Below, piece after piece: positions 10,586-48,903 of a DNA stretch of 64,000 nt. Origin of the DNA: Nitrospirae bacterium GWB2_47_37 (GTDB lineage Bacteria > Nitrospirota > Thermodesulfovibrionia > Thermodesulfovibrionales > Dissulfurispiraceae); assembly GCA_001803635.1 (NCBI GenBank), contig MHDU01000046.1:62001-126000 (forward strand), given 5' to 3'. The translations under genes were made by a program, and so were the position numbers. The notes under the pieces are model-generated. The model ran no database searches. It worked only from the letters and a program-made list of their open reading frames with translations, and was not told the origin of the DNA. Every line of letters begins with the position of its first letter. Position 1 is the first letter of the stretch.

Positions 10586-11104
10586 ATGGAATTTATCGAA
10601 ACTACATCTCTTTATTGGTATGCGATTCATGTCAGGTCAAGGCATGAATTCAAGGTATTGGACAGGCTTACAAAAGCCGGCATAGACGCCTTTTTACCTG
10701 CTGTCGAAAGACTCAGCAGGTGGAAGGACAGAAAAAAGTTGATAAGTTTCCCTCTCTTCCCCGGTTACCTGTTCGTCCATATCCGCAAGATGTATGAAGA
10801 CATGCTGACTGTATTGAAGACCCACGGTGTTGTCAGGTTTATAAGCCTTATTCCCGGAGAACCCGAAGCTGTTCCCGATGATCAGATAATATCTCTTAAA
10901 ATAGTACTTGAAAATAAAGAAACGGTAGACCCTTATCCTTATTTAAAAGAAGGACAGAAGGTCAGAATTAGAAAAGGACCCCTTGCAGGAGCGCACGGCT
11001 TGCTTGTCAAAAGAGAAAGTCAGCACATGCTTGTCCTTTCCGTGGACATACTCCAGCAGGGCATATCCGTAAAAGTAGACGCATCGGACGTAGAGACTTT
11101 ATAA
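10586..11104 (+). CDS. NusG/RfaH/UpxY-like transcription antiterminator
   Basis: The 172-residue product has an N-terminal NGN domain (YWYAIHVRSRHEFKV, then SFPLFPGYLFVHI) and a C-terminal KOW motif (EGQKVRIRKGPLAGAHGLL). NusG paralogues of the RfaH and UpxY groups bind RNA polymerase paused at leader elements and let it read through very long polysaccharide operons. This is the last gene before a 173-base leader and roughly 50 kb of same-strand glycan genes, exactly the UpxY arrangement. It is shorter than RfaH-fold-switching can be judged from, so that point is open. Confidence 0.88.
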   Translation: MEFIETTSLYWYAIHVRSRHEFKVLDRLTKAGIDAFLPAVERLSRWKDRKKLISFPLFPGYLFVHIRKMYEDMLTVLKTHGVVRFISLIPGEPEAVPDDQIISLKIVLENKETVDPYPYLKEGQKVRIRKGPLAGAHGLLVKRESQHMLVLSVDILQQGISVKVDASDVETL

Positions 11105-20223: not shown

Positions 20224-21996
20224 ATGTTTCTAATTACTACAGCCGACCGGCGTTTTTGGAAAATAGATAGACCTGTACTCTTTTTAGGTGAATGGTGCCG
20301 GATCTTTTCGCAGAAGCATATATGGGAAAATCTTAATTGTAAAGTTTTGCCATATCATTGGGATGACCGCGAAAGGCTTTACAGTGATTATTTATATGTT
20401 AAGCGAGTGTATGAGAAAGCTCTTTGTGAACTCTCCGGATGCCTAAACAAGCTTCATGGGACATCATATTCATATCGTTATTGGAGAATTGTTATTGGTC
20501 CATGGCTGTTATCTTTTATCGGGATTCTTTATGATCGCTATCTTTCTATATATTCAGCAGCAGCATCAGGACTTGTTACCGGCACGATTATAAGCAAAAA
20601 TGATTATTGGTTCTTTACGCCTACAGACTTCGGAGATTTTGAAGATCGGTTTATGAGTGATCCGTACAACCATTACCTTTATAGCAGGATTATTGAATTC
20701 ACCGGCATCCTTCCCTACGAGAGAAAAGCCGTTCCAATCACAGAAAAGCCTGAAACGCTGCCGGAAAGGCCGGAGTTTTCATTGAGGAACATGATAAAGA
20801 AAGCAGTTATAGCAATCTCCGGAATCGTTCCTGATTCTTTAAAAACTATAGTATTTATGAGTCCAGGACTGGACAGAATGGATCAGATAGCGATACAACT
20901 TGCTTTGCGGCAGTTCCCTTTTTTATTTACCCCGGAAGTAAAGGCACCGGAGTCTGCACTTGACTTTAAAAAAAGAAAAGAAATATCTCTTACCTTTTAT
21001 GATGACGATTTTATGAAAATTTTGAATTCTCTGATTCCTGAACAGATACCTCAAAGTTATATTGAATCATACGGTTATTTGAGAGAAGAAGCATTAAAGA
21101 AATTTCCTGCAAAACCATCGATAATTTTTACTGCTAATGCTCATTATAAAAATGAAGGATTCAAGGTATGGGCAGCCTCGTGTGCCGAAGAAGGTTCCTT
21201 GCTGGCTGGGACACAGCATGGCGGATTCGAAGGCATGGGGCGTTGGTTTTCATTGGAAGACCATCAAAGGAGCATATGGGATAAATATTATTCATGGGGT
21301 TGGGACGATCCTTTGGAGGGAAAAATAAAATCACTTCCTGCGGCAAGGCTGAATCGTGCGAAGAGTTTAAAGGGCGACAAAAGCGGCAGAATATTGATGG
21401 TGAATACTGCGTTTATCAGATATTCTTATTATATGCAGAGTATGCCGGTCGCCATGTCCGGATATAATGCATATTTAAAAAACATATTCTCTTTTATAAA
21501 ACTTCTTGGAAAGGATGCAAGGCAGCTTTTAACCGTAAGGTTATATCCACACGATTTATCGTGTGATGAGAAGCAAAGATTTGCCGATGAACTGCCTGAT
21601 ATAGATTGTTATCGCGGTAAAAAATCTTTCTATGAACAATTAAGTGAAAGTCGTCTTCTGATCGGCAATAATAACGGAACCACATATTTGGAAGCGTTTG
21701 CAGCCGGCATCCCGACGGTTTTGTTCTGGGATCCCGCTTACTGGGAATTGCGCGAAACTGCCAAGCCTTATTTTGATGAACTACACAGAACCGGGATTCT
21801 CCACTATACACCGGAGTCATGTGCCGAGCTTGTGAATAATATCTATAAGGACCCTGTAGCATGGTGGGCGCAGGATGATGTGCAGAAGGCAAAGGACAGG
21901 TTCTGTCATCGTTTTGCAAGGACATCCGACGGATGGCTTAAAGAATGGAGGCAGGAGTTGGCCGCCCTTATCCCGCAGCGTGTGCCTGCATGGTAA
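20224..21996 (+). CDS. LIC12162-family putative transferase
   Basis: The 590-residue protein begins MFLITTADRRFWK with FLGEWCRIF shortly after, the N-terminal pattern of the LIC12162 (TIGR04331) family of putative transferases from spirochaete and other surface-polysaccharide loci. The C-terminal third is GT-B-like: ESRLLIGNNNGTTYLEAFAAG followed by IPTVLFWDP. The donor and acceptor are unknown. It sits between cassette A and the pseudaminic-type genes and is a candidate for transferring one of the CMP-activated acids. Confidence 0.82.
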   Translation: MFLITTADRRFWKIDRPVLFLGEWCRIFSQKHIWENLNCKVLPYHWDDRERLYSDYLYVKRVYEKALCELSGCLNKLHGTSYSYRYWRIVIGPWLLSFIGILYDRYLSIYSAAASGLVTGTIISKNDYWFFTPTDFGDFEDRFMSDPYNHYLYSRIIEFTGILPYERKAVPITEKPETLPERPEFSLRNMIKKAVIAISGIVPDSLKTIVFMSPGLDRMDQIAIQLALRQFPFLFTPEVKAPESALDFKKRKEISLTFYDDDFMKILNSLIPEQIPQSYIESYGYLREEALKKFPAKPSIIFTANAHYKNEGFKVWAASCAEEGSLLAGTQHGGFEGMGRWFSLEDHQRSIWDKYYSWGWDDPLEGKIKSLPAARLNRAKSLKGDKSGRILMVNTAFIRYSYYMQSMPVAMSGYNAYLKNIFSFIKLLGKDARQLLTVRLYPHDLSCDEKQRFADELPDIDCYRGKKSFYEQLSESRLLIGNNNGTTYLEAFAAGIPTVLFWDPAYWELRETAKPYFDELHRTGILHYTPESCAELVNNIYKDPVAWWAQDDVQKAKDRFCHRFARTSDGWLKEWRQELAALIPQRVPAW

Positions 21997-23272: not shown

Positions 23273-24637
23273 ATGAAAGTGCTTTTAATAAATCCTTCTA
23301 TTAGAGAATGGGCAAAACCCAATGTCCTGCCTTTAGGTCTTGGATATATTACATCCATGCTGAGAAATGCCGGGCATGATGTGGAGGTCATGGACATAAA
23401 TGCCTTTCGCTGGGAACCGGAGGACGTAGAGGAAAAAATTAAAAATGCAGATTTTGATATAGCGGGCATAGGAGCCATTGTAACTGTATATAGGCATGTT
23501 AAATGGCTGATATCTTTATTAAAGAAATATCATCCGGCTAAAAAGCTTATGGTAGGCGGCAGCGTTGGAACTTCTATCCCCCATATAATATTGGAAAAGA
23601 CAGAAGCTGATATAGTTTGTATAGGTGAAGGCGAGGACACTGTGGTTGAACTTGTTGAGGCGTTGGAGAAAAACTCAGATTTAAAAAACATCGATGGGAT
23701 ATGGTTTAAAGGTGAGGATGGAAGTATTTACAGGAATAAAAACAGAACGCCTATTAAAGATATGGATGCTATACCATTGCCTGCATGGGATTTATTTCCT
23801 ATGGAAATCTACTTAAAGAACCCGGTTGGCGCACCTAACAGGAATAAGTGGATAGACGGCGGCTTGGATGATAACGCTGTTTTATCCATGAATTTGAGCG
23901 CTACTCGTGGATGTCCGTATAAGTGCATATACTGCTATCATGATTTTATGGGAAGCGCCTACAGGCATCGATCACCGGAAAATATTGTAAATGAAATGAG
24001 GATATTACATGACAAATACGGGGTGAGATATTCTCATTTTATTGACGATGAGTTCTGTTTAAAGAAAAATTTTGTTTTTGATTTTTGCGAGAGGGTAAAA
24101 GAGGAATTTAACGGCAGTATGACATGGGGATGTTCAGGAAGAGTTAACCTGATGACGGAAGATATGATTGCTGCAATGGCCGATGCCGGTTGCGTTCTAA
24201 TTGGATACGGGATTGAATCTGGAAGCCAAAAGATGTTGGACGCAATGAAGAAAGGGGTAACGGTACAACAGGCCAAAGAGGCAATTGGGTTGACGGTAAA
24301 ATATCTCGGATGGGCCGATTGTTCCTTTATGATAGGGACCCCGGGTGAGACTATGGAAACAGTACAGGAAACGATCGATTTTTGTAAGGAATTAGACCTT
24401 GCTCCCGAGGTCATATTTTTTGCAACACCGTATCCCGGAACAGAATTGTATAATTTGGCATTATCGCAGGGAAAGATTAGAGATGAAGAAGATTACATAC
24501 TCGGGCTTGGTGAGCAGGGAGAAAAAATAAGGGTAAATTTTACGGATTTTTCCGATACGGAACTGCTGCGCATTCAGGAGATGATGATTCGGGAGCTGAA
24601 TGCATGGAATAAGCTAAAACACCCGGAGAGCAGATAA
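23273..24637 (+). CDS. B12-binding-type radical SAM protein in the pseudaminic cassette
   Basis: The 454-residue product has an N-terminal B12-binding-like domain (MKVLLINPSIREW start, KLMVGGSVGTSIPH, DIVCIGEGEDTVVEL), the radical SAM motif CPYKCIYC (C214, C218, C221) and a HemN-like barrel with GYGIESGSQKMLDAMKKG. It lies between pseC and pseF, and its stop overlaps the pseF start (TAATG). That suggests action on a pseudaminic acid intermediate or the finished sugar. Methylation, epimerisation or deoxygenation are all possible. Confidence 0.86.
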   Translation: MKVLLINPSIREWAKPNVLPLGLGYITSMLRNAGHDVEVMDINAFRWEPEDVEEKIKNADFDIAGIGAIVTVYRHVKWLISLLKKYHPAKKLMVGGSVGTSIPHIILEKTEADIVCIGEGEDTVVELVEALEKNSDLKNIDGIWFKGEDGSIYRNKNRTPIKDMDAIPLPAWDLFPMEIYLKNPVGAPNRNKWIDGGLDDNAVLSMNLSATRGCPYKCIYCYHDFMGSAYRHRSPENIVNEMRILHDKYGVRYSHFIDDEFCLKKNFVFDFCERVKEEFNGSMTWGCSGRVNLMTEDMIAAMADAGCVLIGYGIESGSQKMLDAMKKGVTVQQAKEAIGLTVKYLGWADCSFMIGTPGETMETVQETIDFCKELDLAPEVIFFATPYPGTELYNLALSQGKIRDEEDYILGLGEQGEKIRVNFTDFSDTELLRIQEMMIRELNAWNKLKHPESR

Positions 24638-26374: not shown

Positions 26375-26982
26375 GAGTTTTATTTTTAGGCGGCAATCCG
26401 GCAAAAGATATTGCAGACTGGCTGGAAGAGCAAGGGGAGGTTGTCGTATATACAGAGGATAAGCTAATCATTGATGAGGCAAGACATATAAAGCCCGACA
26501 TGATAGTAAGCTATAATTATAAGTACATAATACCAAAAGTGATAATAGATTGTGTTAAAGGCAAGACCGTAAACTTGCATATATCATATCTTCCATTCAA
26601 TAGGGGTGCTCATCCTAACATCTGGAGTTTTATTGAGGATACTCCAAAAGGCGTAACAATACATTATATAGACGAAGGGATAGATACTGGAGCCATTATA
26701 GTTCAAAAGGAAGTGTTTATTGATGAAGAAAAGGAGACCATAGCAAGTTCATATGAAATTTTGCACAAAGAGATTCAGTCACTATTTAAAGAAAACTGGA
26801 ATAAGATTAAAAATGGTGAAATAGCTTTAAAGAAACAAACAGGTGAGGGGAGTTTGCATTATAAGAAAGATAGTATTAGATTTGAACATTTGCTCAAAGA
26901 AAAGGGATGGGGTATCCCAATAAAAGAATTGAAACTGCAATATGGGCAGATCAAGGCAAAACGCTATGAACAGCAATATTAA
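26371..26982 (+). CDS. Formyltransferase-family protein in the PseH position
   Basis: The 203-residue product has the formyltransferase catalytic core: Asn68 and His70 in NLHISYLP, the RGAHPNIWSF segment, and Asp105 in IDEGIDTGAI. Relatives move a formyl group from N10-formyl-THF to an amine (Fmt, ArnA, VioF and other sugar N-formyltransferases). No PseH-like N-acetyltransferase is found among the pse genes, so it may formylate the 4-amino group of the trideoxy-altrosamine. It overlaps pseG and pseI. A 7-N-formyl pseudaminic acid is known from Pseudomonas aeruginosa pilin glycan. Confidence 0.84.
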   Translation: MRVLFLGGNPAKDIADWLEEQGEVVVYTEDKLIIDEARHIKPDMIVSYNYKYIIPKVIIDCVKGKTVNLHISYLPFNRGAHPNIWSFIEDTPKGVTIHYIDEGIDTGAIIVQKEVFIDEEKETIASSYEILHKEIQSLFKENWNKIKNGEIALKKQTGEGSLHYKKDSIRFEHLLKEKGWGIPIKELKLQYGQIKAKRYEQQY

Positions 26983-28021
26983 AATCGGCAACAGATTTAT
27001 CGGCATTAATCATGCGCCCTTCATTATTGCAGAAATGTCAGGAAACCATAATCAGTCATTAGATAGGGCATTGGCGATTGTTGAGGCAGCAGCAAAAGCA
27101 GGAGCGCATGCCGTTAAGCTCCAGACGTATACTGCGGATACTCTTACTATCGATGCCGACAATGACTCCTTCTTTATAAATGATCCTGATAGTCTTTGGA
27201 ATGGGCAATCTCTGTATAAACTCTATCAGCAGGCATATACACCATGGGAATGGCACAGGCCCATTTTCGACCGCTGTAATGAACTTGGTATAATCTGTTT
27301 CAGCACTCCTTTCGATGAAACAGCGGTTGATTTCCTTGAAGAGCTTAATACCCCTGCATATAAAATCGCATCATTTGAAAATAACCATCTGCCGTTGATT
27401 CGTAAAGCTGCCTCAACCGGCAAGCCGCTGATCATATCCACGGGCATGGCAACAATTTCAGAACTGGATGAGGCGGTGAGGACTGCCCGTGATGCAGGCT
27501 GTAGCGACCTGATGCTGTTGAAATGCTCAAGCACGTATCCTGCCGCGCCGGAGAATACGAATTTAGTAACTATTCCGCATCTCAGGCAACTTTTTGATGT
27601 CGAGGTCGGCTTATCTGACCATACGCCCGGTATCGGGGTATCTGTCGCAAGCATAGCGCTTGGAGCAACCGTGATAGAAAAACATTTTACTTTAAACCGT
27701 GCCGACGGCGGAGTGGACGCAGCTTTTTCTATAGAGCCGGAGGAGATGCGGATGCTCGTGTCGGAAACCTGTAAGGCATGGGAGTCCCTCGGTACGATTT
27801 TCTACGGCTGCACGCCGTCCGAGGCTGCATCAAATATTTACCGACGTTCAATCTACGCGGTGAGCGATATCCGTGAGGGAGAAGTTATTACGCCTGCCAA
27901 CATACGTGTTATCAGACCGGGAGAGGGTCTCCCGCCGAGGTACTACAGCGTAATCTTGAATAAAACGGCAGCGTGCAACATAAAGCGCGGTTTCCCGATG
28001 AGATGGGAATATATAGCTTAA
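26966..28021 (+). CDS. pseI: PseI-like pseudaminic acid synthase
   Basis: From ATG 26966, with AAGG at 26953-26956, the product is 351 residues. It has the NeuB barrel (IIAEMSGNHNQSL, AHAVKLQTYTADT, ISTGMATISEL, GLSDHTPGIG, EKHFTLNRADGGVDAAFS) and a complete C-terminal SAF domain (from about residue 290, RRSIYAVSDIREGEVIT). PseI condenses PEP with 2,4-diacetamido-trideoxy-altropyranose, or here perhaps the N-formyl analogue. It overlaps the formyltransferase gene. ATG 26942 is a less likely longer start. Confidence 0.9.
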   Translation: MNSNIKIGNRFIGINHAPFIIAEMSGNHNQSLDRALAIVEAAAKAGAHAVKLQTYTADTLTIDADNDSFFINDPDSLWNGQSLYKLYQQAYTPWEWHRPIFDRCNELGIICFSTPFDETAVDFLEELNTPAYKIASFENNHLPLIRKAASTGKPLIISTGMATISELDEAVRTARDAGCSDLMLLKCSSTYPAAPENTNLVTIPHLRQLFDVEVGLSDHTPGIGVSVASIALGATVIEKHFTLNRADGGVDAAFSIEPEEMRMLVSETCKAWESLGTIFYGCTPSEAASNIYRRSIYAVSDIREGEVITPANIRVIRPGEGLPPRYYSVILNKTAACNIKRGFPMRWEYIA

Positions 28022-30187: not shown

Positions 30188-32023
30188 ATGTTAGACAGTA
30201 TATTAATTAATACTCCCGTGTCCAGCCCGTTGCACCCACAGGCCAATTTGCCTTTACTGAAAGGATATTTAGCTGCACACGGCTTTCGCGTGGGTATTAT
30301 CGACAGCAACATACTTTTTTACCGCTCCTTCTTGAATATTTCCAAAGAGAATAAGTTTAGGATAGATATTGAAGAATGTTTTGAGAATCCCCTAAGCATT
30401 TTATCTTTCTATAACAATATAGAGAGAGAATTATGGGATAGGAGCAAGAATTTTGACGGACTCGATATCGGGTTGCGCTATGTGAACATGAAATATGATA
30501 GGACGAAATTCGATAGTGTAATTGCAGCCGTCAGCGACAGAGGGGCAAATCCTTTTATTGCTTTCTATGAGCAGCTCATTGAGGAGCGCATAGTAAACGC
30601 CGGAATTAAAATCATCGGCATCGCGATAACCTTTCAGGATCAAATCATCTCCGCATTTACTCTGGCCGGCCTTATTAGAAAGCGCCTCCCGGCGGTTAAG
30701 ATTGTTATGGGCGGTCAGATGATTACCCGGTGTTATAATACCATGCTAAAACATGCGGAATTGTCCAAATATTACGATTTTTTAGCGCTATGGGAGGGCG
30801 AAAAAACTCTGCTTGATATTCACAGAAAGATAATACTCAATGAAGATATCGAACTGATCAACGTTATAGATATCAACAGCAATACATATAAAATAGACCG
30901 CCGGAGCAACGCCCCTTCCTCGGACGAGATACCCTCTCCGGATTTTAGCGACATTAATTTTGCCGACTATTTTTTCCCGGAAATGCTGGTCCCCCTGCAA
31001 ACAACAAGGGGATGTTACGGGAAGTGTGAGTTCTGTGCAATTCCATTCGGGGCTAATTCATATAGAATGAGAACCGTGGATAGAGTTATTGATGATATTA
31101 CAAAAATTCAGGCTCATACCCTTGACAAATACGGCAAAAAAGCGACCTATTTCAAGTTTATGGAAGACACGTCATCCCCGGCCTTGTTGTTAGGGCTATC
31201 GGATGAAATCGAAAAAAGAGGGCTTGATGTTAAGTGGGAAACATTTGCAAGATTAGAGAAGGCATTCACAAAGCCGGGATTTATGGAAAAACTTTTCAGG
31301 GGAGGCTGCAGGAAGATCCATTGGGGCCTTGAATCCAGCGACCCAGCCGTTCTTCAGAATATGAATAAGAAAACCACCACTTCCGATTCGGATAAGGTGC
31401 TTGAGCTATCCGCAAAGGCAGGGATATTGAATTTCTGTTTCATACTGGTCGGGTTTCCGGGAGAGACCGATGAGGCTCGCGAAAATATGGCTCGTTATAT
31501 TATAGAAAATAGAAATATTCACACTATAACCATCGCGACCTTTGATTTAACACGGGGCTCCTTGATGGAGCAAAACTTCAAAGCCGATAATGCTTATGGC
31601 TTGGAAATGCTGCCTGCGGAAGATTTCCAGGTCCGGTTACCTTATTCCGTTAAAGGCGAAAACTGGAAGCAGAAAATTATTCCCAGCGCACATAGAATAA
31701 TGCTGGATGTAGCGAAGGCGAGACCCGATATAGGATTTATGACGCTGTTCCCGGATCAGATAAGATCTATTTATTGCGAGAAATTTTCAAATGCATGGGG
31801 GCAGAGTTTTCTTGAGAAATATGGAGAAGAAAATATCAAATCAATGCTTGCAAATACGGAAAAATATATCGATGACTATAAGAACAATGTGGATATAGAT
31901 CCTGCTTTGCTGCCCGAACCGCTTAGGCGCGAACATTTCCGGACTAAAGAGGATATGGAAATGATTGCTAGTGCCCTTATTGCCAGAAAAAATTATGAGA
32001 AGAGAAGAGCGGATCAAGTGTGA
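30188..32023 (+). CDS. Long B12-binding-type radical SAM protein
   Basis: At 611 residues this is the longest radical SAM protein here. It has an extended N-terminal domain (to about 265) with KIVMGGQMITRCY and LWEGEKTLLDI, the motif CYGKCEFC (C276, C280, C283), then FKFMEDTSSPALL, WGLESSDPAVLQ and a C-terminal extension. The N-terminus (NTPVSSPLHPQANLPLLKGYL) follows the B12-binding pattern without DxHxxG. The stop overlaps the next gene's GTG start, so it is coupled to the unknown 416-residue protein. Confidence 0.85.
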   Translation: MLDSILINTPVSSPLHPQANLPLLKGYLAAHGFRVGIIDSNILFYRSFLNISKENKFRIDIEECFENPLSILSFYNNIERELWDRSKNFDGLDIGLRYVNMKYDRTKFDSVIAAVSDRGANPFIAFYEQLIEERIVNAGIKIIGIAITFQDQIISAFTLAGLIRKRLPAVKIVMGGQMITRCYNTMLKHAELSKYYDFLALWEGEKTLLDIHRKIILNEDIELINVIDINSNTYKIDRRSNAPSSDEIPSPDFSDINFADYFFPEMLVPLQTTRGCYGKCEFCAIPFGANSYRMRTVDRVIDDITKIQAHTLDKYGKKATYFKFMEDTSSPALLLGLSDEIEKRGLDVKWETFARLEKAFTKPGFMEKLFRGGCRKIHWGLESSDPAVLQNMNKKTTTSDSDKVLELSAKAGILNFCFILVGFPGETDEARENMARYIIENRNIHTITIATFDLTRGSLMEQNFKADNAYGLEMLPAEDFQVRLPYSVKGENWKQKIIPSAHRIMLDVAKARPDIGFMTLFPDQIRSIYCEKFSNAWGQSFLEKYGEENIKSMLANTEKYIDDYKNNVDIDPALLPEPLRREHFRTKEDMEMIASALIARKNYEKRRADQV

Positions 32024-33270
32024 TACCAGAGATGACAAATAAACTCCCTTCGTCAATGAATATGACTCTCGCATCATACTTACGGAAAACCGATGATATA
32101 TTGACGCGTAATGAACAAAAGCGATGGTTTGCCGGTCTTGAGGAAACGGCAAAGAAGGGCATTCAACAATTTCAGAGCGCAAGCGCAGAAGTTCAGAACG
32201 GAATAATCGGAGCTCTCAAGGATCGCATTAGAACCGAGGAGATAAAGGCTTGGTATAGTGCACCGGAAGGAAATTCTCTTTTTCAAGGCACATCTATTTC
32301 ATCTCTTACCATACCATATACAATAAGTTCCCCTCTGAAATTTCGCTCTATTGTTGACTTGGAGGAAAGTATTGCAAATGCATATATTCAGTTGCATAAG
32401 AGATATGCCAAAAAGGTGAAGAAAGCCGTCATAGAAGATGTTGATACATGGCTTAACGAAGGACTTTATTATGGAGTCGTTCTGAGTTCAAAAATAATAT
32501 CACAGGCTTTTAACCTTTCAGTAAAATACAGCGATGTTGTTTTGAAAATTGGACCATATACGGTTGATCCCCATGAGATAACCTCCTTTCCGGATGATGT
32601 GAGGCATGAATATTTTGAAAAATGCTTGAAACATATAAATGTGTTCGGAGATATTAATCTGGAGCAGCGAGAAATGGAATCAAGTCTTGTGCTTGCGGAT
32701 ATCAGCAAGCCGAAAATGAAGGAGTATAAGGATAAAATTATCCTTGCTCCCGTCAGATGCAATGAAATAGCGTCTATCCTTTCCGATGGAATAACCTCAC
32801 GCATCAGGGAAAAGACAGCCGGAAAAATTAATCCGAGGAGTTTAGCCGTTGTAATTTATGACACTGACACCCCCTATACCTATCACAGGATAATGGGATA
32901 CTGCGGGAACGGTTTGTCTCTCATTCTTCCCGGACTGACTATATTGGGTACGAGCGGCACCATTGAGGCGTTCAGGTGGCTCTATGCTTACAGGGTGAGC
33001 CTTATCGCGCAAAAGATGATGAAAGGTTCTTTGTATTCGGAAGTTCATCGACACTTTGTGCCGTTTGTTTTCTTCGGGGTACTTGTGCCGCGGGATGCCG
33101 AGATTCTCCTGGATATGGAAAATCTTCATAGATTAAGATATAGAGGAAATCTGAATCCCGAACTCGAATGCGCTTACTTGATTCCGGGCGTTCTAAATGC
33201 AATAAATCACTGCGGTTCTCAAGTTTTTTCATGGGAAGACTTTGAGAAAAAACATTTACTAAATAATTGA
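32020..33270 (+). CDS. Unrecognised 416-residue protein of cassette B
   Basis: I do not recognise this protein. It starts at GTG 32020, overlapping the radical SAM stop (GTGA), and has no signal peptide. Residues about 280-320 are glycine-rich and moderately hydrophobic (YRIMGYCGNGLSLILPGLT), and a later segment reads RHFVPFVFFGVLVPRDAEIL. It contains no known nucleotide-binding or metal-binding motif that I can see. Its place between a radical SAM enzyme and an Ntn-hydrolase fusion suggests a role in the same tailoring pathway. Confidence 0.75.
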   Translation: MIPEMTNKLPSSMNMTLASYLRKTDDILTRNEQKRWFAGLEETAKKGIQQFQSASAEVQNGIIGALKDRIRTEEIKAWYSAPEGNSLFQGTSISSLTIPYTISSPLKFRSIVDLEESIANAYIQLHKRYAKKVKKAVIEDVDTWLNEGLYYGVVLSSKIISQAFNLSVKYSDVVLKIGPYTVDPHEITSFPDDVRHEYFEKCLKHINVFGDINLEQREMESSLVLADISKPKMKEYKDKIILAPVRCNEIASILSDGITSRIREKTAGKINPRSLAVVIYDTDTPYTYHRIMGYCGNGLSLILPGLTILGTSGTIEAFRWLYAYRVSLIAQKMMKGSLYSEVHRHFVPFVFFGVLVPRDAEILLDMENLHRLRYRGNLNPELECAYLIPGVLNAINHCGSQVFSWEDFEKKHLLNN

Positions 33271-33282
33271 CAGAGGAGCGAT

Positions 33283-34785
33283 ATGTGCACAATAGGCTAC
33301 CATAAAAAGCTAAACCTGATTTTCAAGAATCGAGATAAAACCTCGGCGACAAATGAAGTTATTATTGTGCGAACCGGTTTCGTTGCAGTTAAAACCGAAA
33401 GCGCCGGCTATTACAGTTTAGGGGTTAATAAAAACGGGTGCGCTTTTGCCGGCGCGGCCGTTAATACGCCGAAATGGACTGCATCGGCTTCTATGGGGCA
33501 ATTAGCCGAAGCTGAGGCTCAATTTAAAGATGAAAACAAGGGACTCTCAAGTCCGATAACCGTTTTATCGAAAGAATTGCCTAATGTCCATGACGTTAAT
33601 GAATGGCTGGAGGTCTTGCTGAACGGCAAAAGAGATTATATGGGCTATAATATTCTGCTTGTCGACAAGGGAAAGGCGGTATATGTTGAGGTCTATCGAA
33701 ATGATTCCCATGTAACCTTTATCGAAGGCGATACGGTGATTACCAATCATTTCCGGTTTTTGGAACATGGTCCTAAGAAAATTGACGATTATCCGAGTTC
33801 ATTTTATCGTCTTGATTTCGCGGAGAAAGAAGTGTCCAATGCGATCTCGCTTGAAGATATTTTTCAAACTCTGAAAACACGCGACCGAGAGCCTGACCGG
33901 GCGCTGTGGAGAAACGGAGCTTTCTCTACGATTTCCTCCTCTGTTGTCGATCTTGAGAATTGCGCCCTGTATTACAGCTCCGATGCCGGGCAGGGATATG
34001 CAAGGATTGCGGCGAGCATTCCGCCGAAAGGCTCCGAAAAGGTTTTTATAGAGATGTCGCGGTATATCGATCTGCCGACTTATCACAATATAGAACGCGG
34101 ACATCCTTTTTATGTTGAGATGATAGAGGAAATAGAGCAGCAGATAAAAAAATATTATGAAACCGTCAAGGACGAATTTGGTGAAGACGCCGGGTTGAAA
34201 ACGCTCGAATTGGGAGCAGGTACGGGTCTATGTACGCTGGAATTGATAAAGTATCCTTTCCTGCAGCTTGACGCCCTTGAGATAGATAATGAGTGTTGCA
34301 AGATATTGGATTCGCATGCCGAAGCTGAAAATTACGGCGTAATTCTCGGCGATGCCGTGTCTTATTGTAAGAAGCACTTTTATGATCTTGTTGTCTCTAC
34401 GTTTGCCCACGATCATATTCATTATAATAATAGATTTGCCTTTGCTAAGAATATTTATAATAACCTGAAAAAAGGCGGGCTTTACATCATGGGTGGGGAA
34501 ATCCTGCCTTATTATTCGAACGATTCTGAAAGGAAAAAGGCGCTGTTCAAGTATCATAATTATATTATCGAACTGGCATTGCAGCATAACAGAGTGCAAC
34601 TGGCGGAGCTGGAGAATAATGCCCTGAAGTCGGGTCTTGATATGGTGGGCGATTTTAAACGGCACGAGGCTATGTTTGAGGATGAGATGATATCCGCCGG
34701 GTTTACCCTTGTCAAAAAGGAAAAAATCGGTCCTCCCGACAGAGAAGATACCGGCGGGGTCTTCGTCTATATATTTAAGGCGTAG
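33283..34785 (+). CDS. Fusion: Cys-type Ntn hydrolase (C45/AAT-like) plus SAM methyltransferase
   Basis: The 500-residue protein begins MCTIGYHKK, so Met removal would expose Cys2 as an Ntn nucleophile. KNRDKTS, NILLVDKGKAVYVEV, TNHFRFLEHG and TISSSVVDLENCALYYSS match the C45 acyl-CoA:6-APA acyltransferase/choloylglycine-hydrolase-like pattern (about 1-265). From about 290 to the end is a class I methyltransferase (TLELGAGTGLCTLEL, LEIDNECC, LKKGGLYIMGG). AGAGGAG lies just before the ATG. Amide hydrolysis or acyl transfer coupled to methylation is plausible; no other fusion of this kind is known to me. Confidence 0.78.
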   Translation: MCTIGYHKKLNLIFKNRDKTSATNEVIIVRTGFVAVKTESAGYYSLGVNKNGCAFAGAAVNTPKWTASASMGQLAEAEAQFKDENKGLSSPITVLSKELPNVHDVNEWLEVLLNGKRDYMGYNILLVDKGKAVYVEVYRNDSHVTFIEGDTVITNHFRFLEHGPKKIDDYPSSFYRLDFAEKEVSNAISLEDIFQTLKTRDREPDRALWRNGAFSTISSSVVDLENCALYYSSDAGQGYARIAASIPPKGSEKVFIEMSRYIDLPTYHNIERGHPFYVEMIEEIEQQIKKYYETVKDEFGEDAGLKTLELGAGTGLCTLELIKYPFLQLDALEIDNECCKILDSHAEAENYGVILGDAVSYCKKHFYDLVVSTFAHDHIHYNNRFAFAKNIYNNLKKGGLYIMGGEILPYYSNDSERKKALFKYHNYIIELALQHNRVQLAELENNALKSGLDMVGDFKRHEAMFEDEMISAGFTLVKKEKIGPPDREDTGGVFVYIFKA

Positions 34786-34800
34786 ATGGAGGGTTGCAGG

Positions 34801-36279
34801 ATGATAACCGACGACAACGTAAGGCAGTTCTATCGAGAACTCTTATATAAGATAAGCACTTCTAAGTCCTTAGCATATCGCCATTTTGATGAGGAATATT
34901 ATTATGACGCATTGCATCTTAATATATTAAAAATCAACTCGGTTTTGCATAACTATCATAATGAAAAACTAATTTTATATACGGATAAAGGCTTCTCCGC
35001 ATATAGCGCTATCTTTAGCGTCTTTCTATCGCGGAATATATGGATTCCTTTATCAACCGATATGCCTGAAATTAGGACGCTCGATATTTTAAGAGCCGTC
35101 GAACCTAAAATGTTTTTATACAATATCCCGTTGCCGTCATTTATTGTTGATTTTTTGCAGGAGAATGGGATAGAGCAGGTGGATATAAATACAATTTTAA
35201 ACGGTGAGCAAAAAAGAGATTTTGACGATTTTGATTTCCGGACGGATGATATCGCGTATATTATGTTTACTTCAGGATCTACAGGGCTTCCTAAGGGAGT
35301 TCCGATGACCCATCAAAATTATATAAATTTCATCAATAATTGTTTAAACATATTGCCGTTTGGGAAAAACGAGGTTTTTTCGGATTATCATGACTTTGCA
35401 TTCGATATATCTATTTTTTACCTTTTTTGCTGCCCTTTAACCGAAGGTGCATTTGCGCCTGTAATAAATGAAACGGATAAAATGATCCCGTTGCATTTTA
35501 TTCAAAAAAATAAAGTTACGGTGTGGTCGTCGGTTCCTTCCGCCATTTCAAGAGTTCAATCCTTTAAGCCTGATGATACTATCCGGACGGAAATAAATAT
35601 CATGTTTCTTTGCGGAGAGCCGCTAAGCTTGAAAGTCCTTGCTTTCTGTTTGAAAAATACGGGTATCAGCCATGTCTATAATTTTTATGGCCTTACGGAA
35701 ACGGGGGTTGAAAATTTCTATCATGAGTGTTCTCCCGGCGACCTTCTTGAATACGCGGATGTCGGATTCGTTCCGATAGGCAAACCCTTGCATGGAAACG
35801 AAATCAATGTCTCCCCGGAAAGAGAACTTCTCATCAGCGGTCTTCAGATAACGCCGGGCTATATGGGAGGAATTGGAACGGAGAGGTTTGAAGTAATCGA
35901 CGGAGTCCGATGGTTCCGGACCGGGGATATTGTCGATAAGCATGGAGATGTGTATATATGCAAAGGAAGAATGGACTCTCAAGTAAAAGTGAGGGGCTAC
36001 CGCATTGAGTTGATGGATATAGAAGTTCAGATGAGAAAATTTGAGGGAGTAGACGAAGCGGTTTGCTTCACAATCGAAAAGAAAAATAATAATATCCTTG
36101 CCGGTGTTCTTAAACCTAAACCGGGATATGAATTAAACAAGAATGCGTTGGCGGATTTCCTGAAGAAAAACCTTCCCCATTATATGATTCCGGCAATGAT
36201 ATATATAAAAAGCGATATTCCTCTAAATCAAAATGGAAAGATCGATCGCCGTAGAGTCAAAGAGATATGCCTCAATTGA
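34801..36279 (+). CDS. Amino-acid-type adenylation enzyme (AMP-binding)
   Basis: ATG 34801 is chosen because GGAGGG lies seven bases upstream; 492 residues. It has the P-loop TSGSTGLPKG (157-166), FDISIFYLF (A4 core with the Asp that contacts an alpha-amino group in NRPS adenylation domains and DltA), YGLTETGVEN, FRTGDIV, KVRGYRIEL and the C-terminal lysine in NQNGKIDRRR. It is free-standing and DltA-sized, with a carrier protein gene next to it, so it probably loads an amino acid or similar acid onto that carrier. Confidence 0.88.
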   Translation: MITDDNVRQFYRELLYKISTSKSLAYRHFDEEYYYDALHLNILKINSVLHNYHNEKLILYTDKGFSAYSAIFSVFLSRNIWIPLSTDMPEIRTLDILRAVEPKMFLYNIPLPSFIVDFLQENGIEQVDINTILNGEQKRDFDDFDFRTDDIAYIMFTSGSTGLPKGVPMTHQNYINFINNCLNILPFGKNEVFSDYHDFAFDISIFYLFCCPLTEGAFAPVINETDKMIPLHFIQKNKVTVWSSVPSAISRVQSFKPDDTIRTEINIMFLCGEPLSLKVLAFCLKNTGISHVYNFYGLTETGVENFYHECSPGDLLEYADVGFVPIGKPLHGNEINVSPERELLISGLQITPGYMGGIGTERFEVIDGVRWFRTGDIVDKHGDVYICKGRMDSQVKVRGYRIELMDIEVQMRKFEGVDEAVCFTIEKKNNNILAGVLKPKPGYELNKNALADFLKKNLPHYMIPAMIYIKSDIPLNQNGKIDRRRVKEICLN

Positions 36280-36408
36280 TGAATACTGAACTTTCTCCGG
36301 ATTGAGAGATGTTTGTAGGGTTTAGAAAAGCTCAAAACACCGTTTGAATCTGCAAAAAGGCAAACAATTACAATATCCTTGGACACATTAATAGTAAGAC
36401 ATGAGAAC

Positions 36409-36654
36409 ATGCAAACTATCGCTATAGTAAGAGATATTATTAGAAAGATTTCCGGCGTGGACTTGGATGATGACGACCCTTTAATAATGACTCATCGTAT
36501 TGATTCCATGGATATAATTGAAATCGTATCGGCGCTGGAGCAAGAATTTAATATTATCATTGAGAGTGAGGATATAATTATGTCCAACTTTGATACGGTA
36601 AAAAAAATGAGCAGTTACGTTTCACGGAAAATTTTCAATGACGGCAGGTTATGA
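36409..36654 (+). CDS. Acyl/aminoacyl carrier protein
   Basis: From ATG 36409 the product is 81 residues; a TTG at 36379 is a less likely start. The phosphopantetheine site is Ser33 in HRIDSMDIIEIV, the ACP/PCP pattern DSxxxxE, within a helical acidic protein. It overlaps the following acyltransferase gene (ATGA) and lies 130 bases after the adenylation enzyme, making a loading-carrier-transfer trio. The gap upstream contains a weak TTGAAT/TACAAT pair (36344 and 36369, 19 apart). Confidence 0.88.
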   Translation: MQTIAIVRDIIRKISGVDLDDDDPLIMTHRIDSMDIIEIVSALEQEFNIIIESEDIIMSNFDTVKKMSSYVSRKIFNDGRL

Positions 36655-37465: not shown

Positions 37466-37502
37466 AAAAATGTGTTGCCGCATCATTGCTAAAGTTTTTC
37501 TA

Positions 37503-39437
37503 ATGAGTAAATCCCCAGACATCAATTATCGTAAGGAAAAGGCTTTTATCTTATATAAGCTGTCCTTGATATCATATATCCTGAGCTTATTTATCAGAAT
37601 AATAATTAGAAATTCTATTATTTATTATATAGAGGTAAGCGATTATTTCATATCAAGAAAATGGCTTAATAAAATAAGAAGGCAGGATGCCGTATGGATT
37701 AAAGAAGAATATGTTGAATATTCTCAATTCAATAAAGGAAATCTTTATGCGGACAGATTTTCAGTGATAATTTCAGATAAAGTCCGGAACAACGGTATGT
37801 TGTCGATTATTGACGGATTTCTTTCGGAGGATTCAAGATTTAAAAAGAAAATGGATATTGTCTGGAAGAGCAATATATGCAAATCGATCGAACCGTTCGC
37901 ATTTCAATACGCAGCCGCGGAGTATTTGGCGAATAAATATCATTACAATAAAATAACTATTATATCTTTCAATTCAATGGTATTAATGCTGAAAGATTAT
38001 TTTCGGGATGATATAAGGGTTATTGTATGGCCGTTTTTGGAATTTATGGGGAAATTCTTAGAAGCTATACGGCGCAGGAAATTGACTTCTTATTTAAGCA
38101 TGCTTTTAATAAACAAAAAAAAACCGGCCGTACAAAAAAACAATACGCCTTTAGATATCGAAAAATTCCAAGTGGCCTATTTCCCTCATGTAGGTATCTT
38201 TTATTGGAACCTTTTTACTAAGGATCACTTTTACAGTAAAGATTCCAAATCGCCGTTCTATCCGTCGAACATACTCCACATAGAACTCGACAAGAGCAGA
38301 AGAGGCGAGTATCTCGACAGTTGTGATTATTACTCAAAAAACAAAATTCCTTTCATCGAATTGCCCGACATCATGTCCGGAAACAGGGAAATCATCAGAG
38401 AGTGTCTGGATGTGTTTAAGAGGAACAAGACGAGATTCTTAAACGATTTATGGAGATTTGGAATCGATTTTTCCGTAATGGCATTTTTCACTCTCTGGAA
38501 GATTTCAAGATTCAGAGCGGCCGTCAGTCGTTTTAAAAGTCTAAAGATTGCGCTTGCCGGATACGATGTTCTGTTCCCGGTTGAGCTTTCCGCAGCGCTG
38601 TCGTTATGCGGTGTTTATGTCTGTGCATCACAGGAGAGGTTCATGCAGGCATTCTTTCCGTCTACATATTTATGCATGGACTATTATTTTGTGTCAGGGA
38701 CAATAGTTGCGGAAAGGGCTTTAAAGAAGTCTTATATCGAACATGTTATTCCTGTGGGGCTGGTACGGGTCGATAAACTGTTTGAATACGAGCAGAAAAA
38801 GATTCCGGACGAAAAATATGACGTCATAAAAAAGAATAAAAAATTAATACTTGTTCTTGATTTTATCATGCCGGAAAATGATATTGAAAATATCAGGCGT
38901 TTCGCAGGAACGGTAAGTCAGGCTCAGAAATTTTATAATGATATAATTAATTTAGCCGTTGAATTCCCTTCTTTATATTTCGTCGTAAAAGGTAAACACA
39001 CCGACTCATACGGAACGGATTATCTAAAAAATATAGTCGAAAGAATAAATCAAATCGGCAACATAGAAATCGAAATGGATCTTAATGTCTATAATCCGTA
39101 TTATCTTTCCGAAAAGGCCGACCTCACGATAATAGCAATCCACACATCGCTGGGAGACGAACTGCTCGCAGCCGGCAGAGAGGTAATATTCTATGAGATA
39201 TCGGATGTCCATGAGACGATCTTCGATTATGACTGCCTGCCGATCATGGTGAAGGACTATGAAGGATTGAGGGAGCAAGTGCAACGCATTCTTAACGGAG
39301 AATATCTGAGTCAAGACGTTATCGACATTTTGAAAAGAGATTTTTACAATAATTGTTTTCACGGCAACGTGCGAAGCACTATACGGACTTTTTTGGAACA
39401 GCTTATTGGAGAACGGTGTGAGCAAGGGACCGCATAG
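37503..39437 (+). CDS. GT-B-like surface carbohydrate biosynthesis protein
   Basis: From ATG 37503 the product is 644 residues (an upstream ATG at 37470 is in frame). The first 40 residues contain a basic and hydrophobic stretch (LSLISYILSLFIRII) that may bind the membrane. The C-terminal third resembles CDP-glycerol/capsule-type GT-B transferases: LILVLDFIMP, VVKGKHTD and ADLTIIAIHTSLGDELLAAG. No family name is certain. It overlaps the start of the ABC exporter, so it may modify the glycan before export. Confidence 0.65.
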   Translation: MSKSPDINYRKEKAFILYKLSLISYILSLFIRIIIRNSIIYYIEVSDYFISRKWLNKIRRQDAVWIKEEYVEYSQFNKGNLYADRFSVIISDKVRNNGMLSIIDGFLSEDSRFKKKMDIVWKSNICKSIEPFAFQYAAAEYLANKYHYNKITIISFNSMVLMLKDYFRDDIRVIVWPFLEFMGKFLEAIRRRKLTSYLSMLLINKKKPAVQKNNTPLDIEKFQVAYFPHVGIFYWNLFTKDHFYSKDSKSPFYPSNILHIELDKSRRGEYLDSCDYYSKNKIPFIELPDIMSGNREIIRECLDVFKRNKTRFLNDLWRFGIDFSVMAFFTLWKISRFRAAVSRFKSLKIALAGYDVLFPVELSAALSLCGVYVCASQERFMQAFFPSTYLCMDYYFVSGTIVAERALKKSYIEHVIPVGLVRVDKLFEYEQKKIPDEKYDVIKKNKKLILVLDFIMPENDIENIRRFAGTVSQAQKFYNDIINLAVEFPSLYFVVKGKHTDSYGTDYLKNIVERINQIGNIEIEMDLNVYNPYYLSEKADLTIIAIHTSLGDELLAAGREVIFYEISDVHETIFDYDCLPIMVKDYEGLREQVQRILNGEYLSQDVIDILKRDFYNNCFHGNVRSTIRTFLEQLIGERCEQGTA

Positions 39438-44894: not shown

Positions 44895-45822
44895 GATTTG
44901 CGGCTCTCAGGAATTCAGCGTCATAGCTACAGAGATAAGGGAGGGGCCGGGAGTAATCAGCCGGTGCGGCAAATGCGGTCTTGTAATTCAGGACATTACC
45001 CGGAACAGGGACGAACTGCAGAGGTATTACAACGAGGAATACCAGAAAACGAATTCTCTGGTGGTCGGCAGGGAACAGACCCCGATGGAGCACTTTGAGG
45101 ACAGAATAAAGACAATGGACAATATAATGGAGAAGCTGCGGCCTTATCTGAAGGCAGGGATGAGTATTCTTGAGGTAGGCAGCGGCAGCGGCGAGCTTCT
45201 TCACCTGATAAAGCCCCTGGTCAAGAGCGTCACCGGCATAGAGATGCACAAGGGGTTTGTTGACTTCATGAACAGCGAACTTGGCATCGAGGCTTACGCG
45301 CAGGACGTCAATCTTATTGATTTCGGTGGAAGGAAGTTCGATCTGATCATTTCAATCATGACCATGGACCATCTCCCAAATCCTGCTGAAACGCTGCTTA
45401 CCATGAAGCGTCTGCTCTCGGAAGACGGGAAAATGTATATAGAACTTCCTAACAGGGAAGAGGCGCTGAACTACTTCCTGCCGGAACCGAACAGAGGGCG
45501 GTTCAATAAATTTTTCTGGCACAGGGCCCACTATTTTTATTTTACAAGGGAAACGCTTGAAAAGCTTATGGTAAAGATCGGGCTTGCATGCGAGATATCA
45601 TGCCGTCATGAATACACGCTCTTTAATTTTCTGAACTGGTATTTTGCAGGCAATCCCCAGAAATCTTTTGTCCAGGCGACTATGGGTAATAGCTTTTTCC
45701 CTGGAGAAAGCGTATTTGAGACCGAAATGAACGGCATGTTTGAAGAGATGGAAGGGCGTTTCCACAAAATTCTTGCGCATACATTCAGGGGTGACACCCT
45801 CTGTTGCGTTGCACGATACTAA
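44881..45822 (+). CDS. Class I SAM methyltransferase with N-terminal zinc-ribbon
   Basis: The 313-residue product has an N-terminal CxxC pair (CEICGS and CGKCGL) and a methyltransferase domain with SILEVGSGSGELLHL, GIEMHKGF and MDHLPNPAETL. It mirrors the protein at 14510 in layout: zinc-ribbon, methyltransferase, long aromatic C-terminal tail with HYFYFTRETLEKL. It overlaps the aminotransferase gene by 14 bases and precedes two radical SAM genes. A sugar-acid or carrier-bound substrate is likely but unproven. Confidence 0.85.
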   Translation: MTVCEICGSQEFSVIATEIREGPGVISRCGKCGLVIQDITRNRDELQRYYNEEYQKTNSLVVGREQTPMEHFEDRIKTMDNIMEKLRPYLKAGMSILEVGSGSGELLHLIKPLVKSVTGIEMHKGFVDFMNSELGIEAYAQDVNLIDFGGRKFDLIISIMTMDHLPNPAETLLTMKRLLSEDGKMYIELPNREEALNYFLPEPNRGRFNKFFWHRAHYFYFTRETLEKLMVKIGLACEISCRHEYTLFNFLNWYFAGNPQKSFVQATMGNSFFPGESVFETEMNGMFEEMEGRFHKILAHTFRGDTLCCVARY

Positions 45823-45835
45823 AGGAGCTGAACAT

Positions 45836-47338
45836 ATGAAGGTTCTTCTGATATATCCGAATATAAGGGGGATGAACATGCTGCCCCCGGCGATCGCCCT
45901 ATTTACAGCCATACTGCGTGAGCGAGGCCATGTGGTGGCCCTGTTCGATTCCACCGACTACCCGAATCCAGAAGATGACGAGTTCAACAGCGATAAGTAC
46001 AAAGAAATGAATCTTAACGTAAGACCGTTTGACGACTCTCTTCTGAAAGTGTCTTTCAAGGATGAGGATGTTTATGATGCCTTTGAACGGACCGTCAAGG
46101 AGTTTCAGCCACAACTTATGGCAATGTCATGCACGGAAGATATGTTTCCGATAGGCGTAAGCCTGCTTAAGAGGACCGCAGGCCTTAAAATACCGACTCT
46201 TCTTGGAGGCGTATTCCCGACCTTTGCTCCGGAACTGGTGATGTCCCACCGGGAGGTAGATATGGTTTGTGTCGGAGAGGGGGAGCAGGTCATAGCCGAA
46301 CTGTGTGATCGTATGGACAAGGGCAGACCGTATTCGGATATTCCGGGGCTGTGGATAAAGAACAACGACAACGTCATACGAAATTCTATGGGGCCGGCAG
46401 TGGATATGAACGACAATCCGTTATTGGACCTGTCTATATTTTCCGAGGGCAGGCTTTATAGGCCCATGCAGGGAAAGGTATGGAAAATGTTCCCTCTTGA
46501 AACGCATCGGGGTTGTCCCTATACCTGCACTTATTGCAATTCGCCCGCGCAGGCCGTGAAATACAGGAACGAGACCGCCTCGCATTTTTTCAGAAAAAAG
46601 AGATTCGATAGAATAAGGGAAGAGATCATTCATCTGAGGGATAAATACGGGGCCGAGGCGTTCTATTTCTGGGCGGACACTTTTTTTGCATATACCGAAA
46701 AGGAGTTCGATGAGTTTGTTGATATGTATTCCGAATTCAAAATCCCTTTCTGGTGCCAGACGAGACCGGAAACCATAACCATTGATAGGGTTAAAAAACT
46801 TGCAAGCGTCGGGATGTTCAGAATGGCTTTCGGTATAGAGCACGGCAATCCGGAGTTCAGGAAAAAGGTGATTAAACGGCACGTGACAAATGAAAAGATG
46901 ATAGAATCGCTTAAACTGGTGAATGAGGCTGGGGTCCCTTTCAGTGTTAATAATATACTCGGTTTCCCCTATGAGACCCGTGATCTGACCTTCGACACCA
47001 TAGAGCTGAACAGGCATATTGAGGCGGATAGCATGAACGCCTACTCCTTCAGTCCTTTTCATGGAACTCCGCTACGGGAAATAGCGGAACAGGAAGGCTT
47101 CATAGAGCCGGGCGTGATCGCCAGGTCTTTGACAAAGCCGACTATGCTCAAAATGCCGCAGTACCCTCCTGAACAGATTGAAGGGATGAGGCGGTGTTTT
47201 GTCCTATATGTAAAATTGCCCCCAAAACGGTGGCCTGAGGTTAGAAAGGCCGAAGAGCCGACTCCTGAAGGGAATGTTGCTTGGAAGGCTCTGAGGGACG
47301 AAGTAGCCGAAAAATATTTCCGGTTCGATGTTTCATAA
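45836..47338 (+). CDS. B12-binding-type radical SAM protein, first of a tandem pair
   Basis: ATG 45836 follows AAGGAG; the 500-residue product has a B12-binding-like N-terminus (MKVLLIYPNIRGM, TLLGGVFPTFAPE, DMVCVGEGEQVIAEL), the motif CPYTCTYC (C227, C231, C234), and GMFRMAFGIEHGNPEFRKK. It has no DxHxxG. The next gene encodes a clear paralogue with the same spacing of segments (RLYRPM, WCQTRPETIT and SVNNILGFPYETR against FNTRPETIT and SVNNIIGFPDETR). The pair are probably related enzymes with different substrates, or partners. Confidence 0.87.
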   Translation: MKVLLIYPNIRGMNMLPPAIALFTAILRERGHVVALFDSTDYPNPEDDEFNSDKYKEMNLNVRPFDDSLLKVSFKDEDVYDAFERTVKEFQPQLMAMSCTEDMFPIGVSLLKRTAGLKIPTLLGGVFPTFAPELVMSHREVDMVCVGEGEQVIAELCDRMDKGRPYSDIPGLWIKNNDNVIRNSMGPAVDMNDNPLLDLSIFSEGRLYRPMQGKVWKMFPLETHRGCPYTCTYCNSPAQAVKYRNETASHFFRKKRFDRIREEIIHLRDKYGAEAFYFWADTFFAYTEKEFDEFVDMYSEFKIPFWCQTRPETITIDRVKKLASVGMFRMAFGIEHGNPEFRKKVIKRHVTNEKMIESLKLVNEAGVPFSVNNILGFPYETRDLTFDTIELNRHIEADSMNAYSFSPFHGTPLREIAEQEGFIEPGVIARSLTKPTMLKMPQYPPEQIEGMRRCFVLYVKLPPKRWPEVRKAEEPTPEGNVAWKALRDEVAEKYFRFDVS

Positions 47339-47370
47339 GTGTTCCAATAATAACGGTCCATGGAGGTGAT

Positions 47371-48903
47371 ATGGCAACATCATTGACAGACACTCAAAGC
47401 GTTCCCAATGCCGGAGATTTCAAGGTGCTGCTGGTATACGCCAATTCGCCGATGGACAACTTAATGCCGGTAAGTATTTCTTCTCTTGCCGGCGCTCTAA
47501 AGCGTCGTGGTTTTTCCATCAAGCTGTTTGATACGACTTTTTATCCATGGACAAGTTCTGCAGGAGGGGAGAGAGGCGGCTCATTGCAGGTTGCTGAGTT
47601 CGATTATAAAAAAGTCGGCATTACTTTTGTTGAGACAAATGTTTATGATGATTTTAGAAAAATGGTGCAAGAGTACAGGCCAAATCTTATCGCTCTGTCC
47701 TCAGTTGAACCAACACACGAGTTCGGCCTGAGGCTTCTTCAATGTGTCGATGATATGGGAATTTTTACCATTATGGGGGGAGTTCATACTATTTTTTCAA
47801 GCGAAGAGGTATTTAGAGAAGAGGTTGTTGACATGGTATGTATAGGTGAAGGAGAGAAATGTCTTGTTGAGTTATGCGAAAGAATGGCCGAAGGATTAGA
47901 TTATACAAATATTAATAATATCTGGGTTAAACAAGATGGAAAGCAGTACCGGAATAAAAAAGACCGGGTTTTAAATATGGACGACCTCCCAATGCTTGAT
48001 TTTTCAATTTATGACGAAAAGAGATTATATAGACCAATGGCAGGCAAACTTTATCGCATGGCTCCGGTCGAGTTTTCGCGGGGCTGCATTTTCAAATGTG
48101 CTTACTGTTCTGCACCGTCATATGCTGAAACATTTAAAGACAGCGGTAAATGGTTAAGGCACAAATCCATAGACAGAATTATCGAAGAAATAAAGACCTA
48201 TGCTGAAGAGTATAACATCGAATATTTTTATTTTGTTTCTGAAACCTTCCTCGCTATGTCTGATCAGCGATTCAATGAATTTGTCGGGCAGTATAGTAAG
48301 ATAGGGATTCCATTTTGGTTTAATACGAGACCTGAAACTATAACTGCGGACAGAATTAAAATGCTTGAAGGTATAGGGTGCCACAGAATGAGCGTAGGGG
48401 TCGAATGCGGCAACGAACCATATCGCAGGGAGATGTTAAAGCGGGCGGTCAGCAATGACGCCATTGTGAAGGCCTGCGAGATTGTTGCGAAATCCGACAT
48501 CCAACTATCCGTAAACAACATCATCGGGTTCCCCGATGAAACTCGGGAGATGATTTTTGACACTATTTTTCTGAACAGAAAAATAGAGGCTGACAGTTAT
48601 AGTTGTAGTATATTCCAGCCCTACCGCGGCACACTGCTCCATAAATATTGTGTGGATAAAGGATATATAAACTACCGTGAGCTTGCTATTGACCTTACCG
48701 TAACATCTGTTCTGAAACAACCGTGTATAAGCTCGGATGAAATTAAGGGACTCGCTCGCACGTTTCCCTTATATGTCAAATTTCCGGAAGGCAACTTTGA
48801 TATTATTAGGAAGGCTGAAAAATTCGATGTCGAAGGAGAAGCTGTCTTTAAAGAGCTTTCCATGCGTTATCGAGAAGAATATGAAGGCCCCAAGTTGTGG
48901 TGA
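47371..48903 (+). CDS. B12-binding-type radical SAM protein, second of a tandem pair
   Basis: A near-perfect GGAGGTGAT lies just before ATG 47371; the product is 510 residues. It has a B12-binding-like N-terminus (FKVLLVYANSPMDN, TIMGGVHTIF, DMVCIGEGEKCLVEL), the motif CIFKCAYC (C239, C243, C246) and GVECGNEPYRREMLKRAVS. The same order of conserved blocks as in the upstream paralogue points to local duplication, but composition drifts: its second half is more AT-rich than the first. Confidence 0.87.
   Translation: MATSLTDTQSVPNAGDFKVLLVYANSPMDNLMPVSISSLAGALKRRGFSIKLFDTTFYPWTSSAGGERGGSLQVAEFDYKKVGITFVETNVYDDFRKMVQEYRPNLIALSSVEPTHEFGLRLLQCVDDMGIFTIMGGVHTIFSSEEVFREEVVDMVCIGEGEKCLVELCERMAEGLDYTNINNIWVKQDGKQYRNKKDRVLNMDDLPMLDFSIYDEKRLYRPMAGKLYRMAPVEFSRGCIFKCAYCSAPSYAETFKDSGKWLRHKSIDRIIEEIKTYAEEYNIEYFYFVSETFLAMSDQRFNEFVGQYSKIGIPFWFNTRPETITADRIKMLEGIGCHRMSVGVECGNEPYRREMLKRAVSNDAIVKACEIVAKSDIQLSVNNIIGFPDETREMIFDTIFLNRKIEADSYSCSIFQPYRGTLLHKYCVDKGYINYRELAIDLTVTSVLKQPCISSDEIKGLARTFPLYVKFPEGNFDIIRKAEKFDVEGEAVFKELSMRYREEYEGPKLW

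Follow-up and report, generated by a model that had tools for sequence, protein, structure and literature searches.

An AAT-like Ntn domain joined to a SAM methyltransferase within a rare carrier-protein cassette of a bacterial surface-glycan locus

The stretch of DNA analysed here (the window; 64,000 nucleotides from Nitrospirae bacterium GWB2_47_37) encodes a protein in which a divergent AAT/C45-type Ntn domain (residues 2–235) is followed, on a single chain, by a SAM methyltransferase; the gene is present in single copy in its genome and lies in a cassette within a surface-glycan locus (Table 1). The fused two-domain protein is real and uncommon; its domain families are known, their pairing is new, and no report of an Ntn–methyltransferase fusion was found in the open-access literature. 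The protein arose from genes that neighbour each other in an operon; tentatively, we favour a reading in which its two halves act on one cassette intermediate on the way to N-acyl decoration of a glycan.

Table 1. Features of the fused gene, its cassette and the surrounding locus (positions in the window)
Feature	Position	Strand	Basis or remark
Fused Ntn(AAT)–methyltransferase gene	33283..34785	+	500 aa; Pfam, NCBIfam, dN/dS
AAT/C45-like Ntn module, residues 1 to ~236	33283..33990	+	PF03417, residue conservation, hhalign
Cys2 codon	33286-33288	+	Within Ntn module
KNRD block, residues 15–18; TNH, residues 154–156			Within Ntn module
Joint, residues 237–256	33991..34050	+	TAA stop, Shine–Dalgarno and new ATG here in L008/G032
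Class I SAM methyltransferase module, residues 257–500	34051..34782	+	PF13649, model, Foldseek
Motif I, LELGAGTGL, residues 308–316			Within methyltransferase module
B12-binding radical SAM enzyme	30188..32023	+	Nearest RiPP C-methyltransferase and PhpK families; co-occurrence
X416, 416-aa protein of no known family, cassette member	32020..33270	+	No family match; same 4 genomes as Ntn
DltA/NRPS-like adenylation ligase	34786..36279	+	Amino-acid-binding Asp (FDIS) and catalytic NGK Lys; co-occurrence
Acyl carrier protein (ACP)	36379..36654	+	PF00550
AAC(3)-like N-acyltransferase, accessory, also in L007	36651..37439	+	PF02522
DUF4910/DUF2172 peptidase-like protein, accessory, also in L007	27973..29358	+	Domain match
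Pseudaminic acid synthase PseI, neighbour	26942..28021	+	TIGR03586, 1e-147
B12-binding radical SAM proteins	13094-14410, 18077-19534, 23273-24637, 30188-32023, 45740-47338, 47281-48903, 60325-61911

The open reading frame comprises 500 codons with no internal stop and begins MCTIGYHKK behind a GAGGAG Shine–Dalgarno sequence; 12 bases separate it from the stop of the gene before it, and the next gene begins directly after it. Pfam matched both AAT (PF03417) and Methyltransf_25 (PF13649) on the same 500-residue chain, which bears out the proposal of the first-pass annotation that an Ntn domain and a SAM methyltransferase share one continuous frame. The PF03417 match scores 25.3 bits against a cut-off of 23.2 (orthologues, 23.8 and 30.7) and the PF13649 match 34.7 bits against 27, whilst the best NCBIfam match of the N-terminal half, C45_proenzyme (E = 7.6e-14), scores 51.8, below the curated cut-off of 85. 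PF03417, one of the families suggested beforehand for the N-terminal domain, was recovered; no family of the other suggested type, TANGO2/NRDE, was listed by Pfam or NCBIfam.

Across six sequences (four orthologues plus two further AAT-like proteins from the order) the invariant residues of the N-terminal half are Cys2, Thr3, Gly5, Lys15, Asp18, Asn49, Thr154-Asn155-His156, Arg176, Leu177 and Arg210; the Cys2 and TNHF (residues 154–157) pattern from which an Ntn enzyme had been proposed therefore stands, as does the PF03417 assignment above its cut-off. The SSSVVDLENCALYY block occupies residues 218–231. A profile of the Ntn module aligns to L022, an AAT-like protein of the order, with E = 2.5e-5 (hhalign), and L022 in turn matches, with E = 3.9e-54, the solved structure 3gvz, whose deposition describes an uncharacterized protein. 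In the AlphaFold model of the whole chain, made from a five-sequence input, the Ntn half reaches a pLDDT of only ~26–64 in ten-residue blocks, and among the Foldseek matches listed for the whole chain all are methyltransferases and none is an Ntn protein, which weighs against our preferred reading; the order of helices and strands in this low-confidence half is compatible with the alpha-beta-beta-alpha Ntn fold. Because the model of this half is of low confidence, the predicted Ntn fold is claimed from homology and the catalytic residues, by which it is supported, and not from the AlphaFold model. Structure prediction, one of the checks proposed at the outset, thus matched a fold for the methyltransferase half and left that of the Ntn half to sequence.

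With the AAT/C45 family (PF03417, isopenicillin N acyltransferase, NCBIfam C45_proenzyme) the fused protein shares an N-terminal CT, the KNRD, N..G and TNH blocks, and the WR blocks; unlike that family it has neither propeptide nor signal peptide and carries its Cys as residue 2, and it is much diverged, falls below the NCBIfam C45 cut-off and is joined to a methyltransferase. The lack of an autoproteolytic propeptide ahead of the Cys, together with a Met1-Cys2 start behind a good Shine–Dalgarno sequence, places the protein outside the C45 proenzymes, strictly defined; Cys2 would become N-terminal once Met1 is removed.

Motif I, which lies in the TLELGAGTGLCTLEL block (residues 307–321), and a Rossmann-like fold identify the C-terminal half as a class I SAM methyltransferase. 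Most of this half was modelled with a pLDDT of 62–92, and Foldseek matched it to the SAM/SAH-bound methyltransferases CysG, BelI and 3dtn (E ~5e-10 to 2e-9). The carboxyl O-methyltransferases CysG and BelI (9fcl, 9fce) and 3dtn are the best fold matches and have the class I SAM fold in common with the fused protein, although identity is only ~14–17%. CysG and BelI methylate a carboxyl group and have a His-His-Asp metal site (PMC11408123); the His-His of this motif aligns to Asp-His (AHDHI) in the fused protein. The methyltransferase identity put forward earlier thus held, whereas the domain start, placed there at about residue 290, moved to ~257 (EMSRYIDL) on the evidence of split homologues, in which the METHYLTRANSFERASE half begins at this point.

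Full-length homologues with the same two-domain layout, which the first-pass annotation had proposed to look for, were found in two other genomes: the Nitrospirota MAG DP16D_bin.35 (G023; 68% identity) and the Oligoflexia MAG nN3bin16 (L007; 56% identity), which belongs to another phylum. In G032 and G101/nDJH6_bin1, which are 99.9% identical over 7.9 kb, the same place is taken by separate genes of 250 and 246 codons; these share one frame, and between them lie one TAA, a AAGGAAGAGG stretch and an ATG restart. The homologues are thus not always two separate genes, the layout that the first-pass annotation had named as a sign of a local frame fusion: the fused form occurs in three genomes and the split form in two. 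Over residues 236–265, comparison of the window with L006 gave a dN of 0.124 and a dS of 1.18; outside the joint dS is saturated and dN is 0.16–0.49. With dN low and dS high or saturated across it, the joint is translated and under purifying selection. That the frame reflects an assembly or frame artefact, an idea fed by the status of the homologous genomes as draft assemblies or MAGs, is extremely improbable, and we reject it: the same fusion is present in three separately assembled genomes whose sequences have diverged, the dN/dS pattern is that of a coding sequence under constraint, and the composition of the L007 contig fits its own bin. The earlier judgement that the frame is no local artefact is confirmed by the fused homologues. 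Mis-binning of the L007 contig was rejected, as its GC content and tetranucleotides match its own bin.

Since one lineage carries these modules as two neighbouring genes, the protein is a true fusion, of the Rosetta-Stone type, of two operon neighbours; the two-domain protein is as real as first described, but the pairing is not the isolated oddity it had seemed. Searches with the ligase and the radical SAM enzyme across ~176 genomes found no outgroup with the same genes by which fusion could be polarised against fission. A single TAA and an in-frame restart distinguish the split form, so that a neutral origin, in which the stop codon between adjacent in-frame genes was lost and the coupling reflects co-expression only, is conceivable; we consider it unlikely, given that the fused form has been kept at 56–68% identity in three genomes of two phyla and that the linker is conserved with a low dN. 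Separately, the presence of the cassette in the Oligoflexia MAG, when it is otherwise found only in Nitrospirota, suggests transfer between phyla. At the contig end of L008 (7313-7963) the ligase sequence is duplicated, with VPMTNANYINFVENALE occurring twice; this short contig was probably misassembled there.

The gene order in the window is B12-radical-SAM enzyme, X416, Ntn–methyltransferase, ligase, ACP and AAC(3)-like N-acyltransferase, with the DUF4910 protein and PseI upstream. The radical SAM enzyme, X416, the Ntn and methyltransferase modules, the ligase and an ACP are kept in L006, L007 and L008/L013, an ACP being present in every cassette. The Ntn module, X416, the radical SAM enzyme and the ligase, the four members searched, were each found in the same four of ~176 genomes of the order, and the set is therefore all-or-none; absence from the others of the 175–176 genomes holds at the thresholds used. 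A phylum-wide sample of 396 genomes contained no further Ntn member, and a sample of 291 genomes around that of L007 no other locus. Two methyltransferase peptide patterns, run against the contigs of 84,980 species, returned three loci, although these patterns are strict and could miss distant relatives, and searches of phage, plasmid and viral contigs with the fused protein, the Ntn domain and X416 gave no matches. The cassette is a rare and new module, sited in surface-glycan loci.

The ligase is nearest to NRPS/DltA adenylation domains, and the FDIS Asp and catalytic NGK Lys are present in all four orthologues. In adenylation domains of this type the Asp binds the amino group of the amino acid and the Lys is catalytic; these core residues mark the protein as a ligase of the amino-acid-activating type. 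X416 gave no Pfam, NCBIfam or PDB match; we claim no fold for it, because its AlphaFold model has a mean pLDDT of 45.6 and no fold match. It is strongly conserved (53–65%), co-occurs strictly with the cassette and is probably a new enzyme family.

The substrates, the order of the steps, the direction of the amide reaction and the final sugar are what we infer from this setting. In our preferred reading the Ntn half, which has no propeptide, would become active once loss of Met1 exposes Cys2, and both halves of the protein would act on one cassette intermediate. The adenylation ligase would load an amino acid onto the ACP; the B12-radical-SAM enzyme would probably C-methylate the ACP-bound amino acid, and the fused methyltransferase would O- or N-methylate it. 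The acyl group would then move from the carrier thioester to Cys2 and on to an amine, the end product being an N-acyl decoration on a surface-glycan amino sugar, perhaps a nonulosonic acid. This acyltransferase role of Cys2 is weakened by the presence in each cassette of a further N-acyltransferase candidate, which is AAC(3)-like in two cassettes and, judged by eye only, GNAT-like in two, so that the Ntn half need not be the amide-forming step. The Ntn half might instead be a hydrolase, either a deacylase or an editing thioesterase, that clears an acyl group, whether protecting or loaded in error, whilst the AAC(3)-like or GNAT-like enzyme forms the amide; we hold this to be a serious possibility, if a less than probable one. 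Many Ntn relatives are amidohydrolases; an AAC(3)-like acyltransferase belongs to the cassettes of the window and L007, and those of L006 and L013 have a GNAT-like gene after the ligase. However, a Pfam search at 1e-5 assigned the GNAT-like genes to no family, a carrier thioester is available in the cassette, and AAT enzymes can transfer an acyl group from a thioester to an amine. Most likely, Cys2 handles the loaded group as an acyltransferase or a deacylase, its direction being left between making and cleaving the amide because of the other candidate acyltransferases. A hitherto undescribed pathway, in which the carrier protein, the B12-radical-SAM enzyme, X416 and a bifunctional Ntn-acyltransferase/methyltransferase would place a C- and O/N-methylated amino-acyl group on a surface amino sugar, with the Ntn half as a new ACP-dependent amide synthase, seems to us rather improbable.

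The surrounding locus in the window encodes two NeuB-type synthases, cytidylyltransferases, aminotransferases, epimerases, glycosyltransferases and an ABC transporter, with an O-antigen-ligase-like protein upstream. Nonulosonic acid as the decorated sugar is made less secure by the adjacency of a NeuB-family nonulosonate synthase in only two of the four genomes (the window and L007). The locus is headed by a NusG-family gene (10586-11104), perhaps a specialised antiterminator; it also holds at least seven B12-binding radical SAM proteins and large proteins that lack a Pfam match (20224-21996, 590 aa; 37470-39437, 655 aa).

Das et al. (PMC4000134) connected DUF4910 proteins with genes for NeuB, ACP and aminosugar N-acyltransferases in the context of modified carbohydrates. 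Those loci have in common with the window a DUF4910 protein, a NeuB-type synthase, an ACP, an aminosugar N-acyltransferase and a nucleotidyltransferase; unlike them, the cassette carries the B12-radical-SAM enzyme, X416, the Ntn module and the methyltransferase as an additional all-or-none module, and its adenylation ligase takes the place of the ATP-grasp aminoacyl ligase of C. acetobutylicum. Loading by a stand-alone adenylation ligase onto a discrete carrier protein is shared with Dlt/NRPS systems (DltA–DltC), but no DltB or DltD was seen in the cassette, which differs further in its glycan-locus setting and its extra methylation and Ntn enzymes. We found no paper linking pseudaminate, radical SAM and ACP together.

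The pathway is of a known kind, its novelty lying in the domain pairing and the rare cassette; the cassette neighbourhood, which lay beyond the view of the first-pass annotation, is the basis for the suggested function. The fusion links an AAT-type Ntn enzyme with a methyltransferase within a single pathway; both sit in a compact all-or-none module together with a B12-radical-SAM enzyme, a carrier protein and X416, which belongs to no known family. If the inferred chemistry is right, bacterial surface sugars would be decorated in a new way, by Ntn acyl transfer off a carrier thioester, and X416 would be a new enzyme family with a clear assay context.
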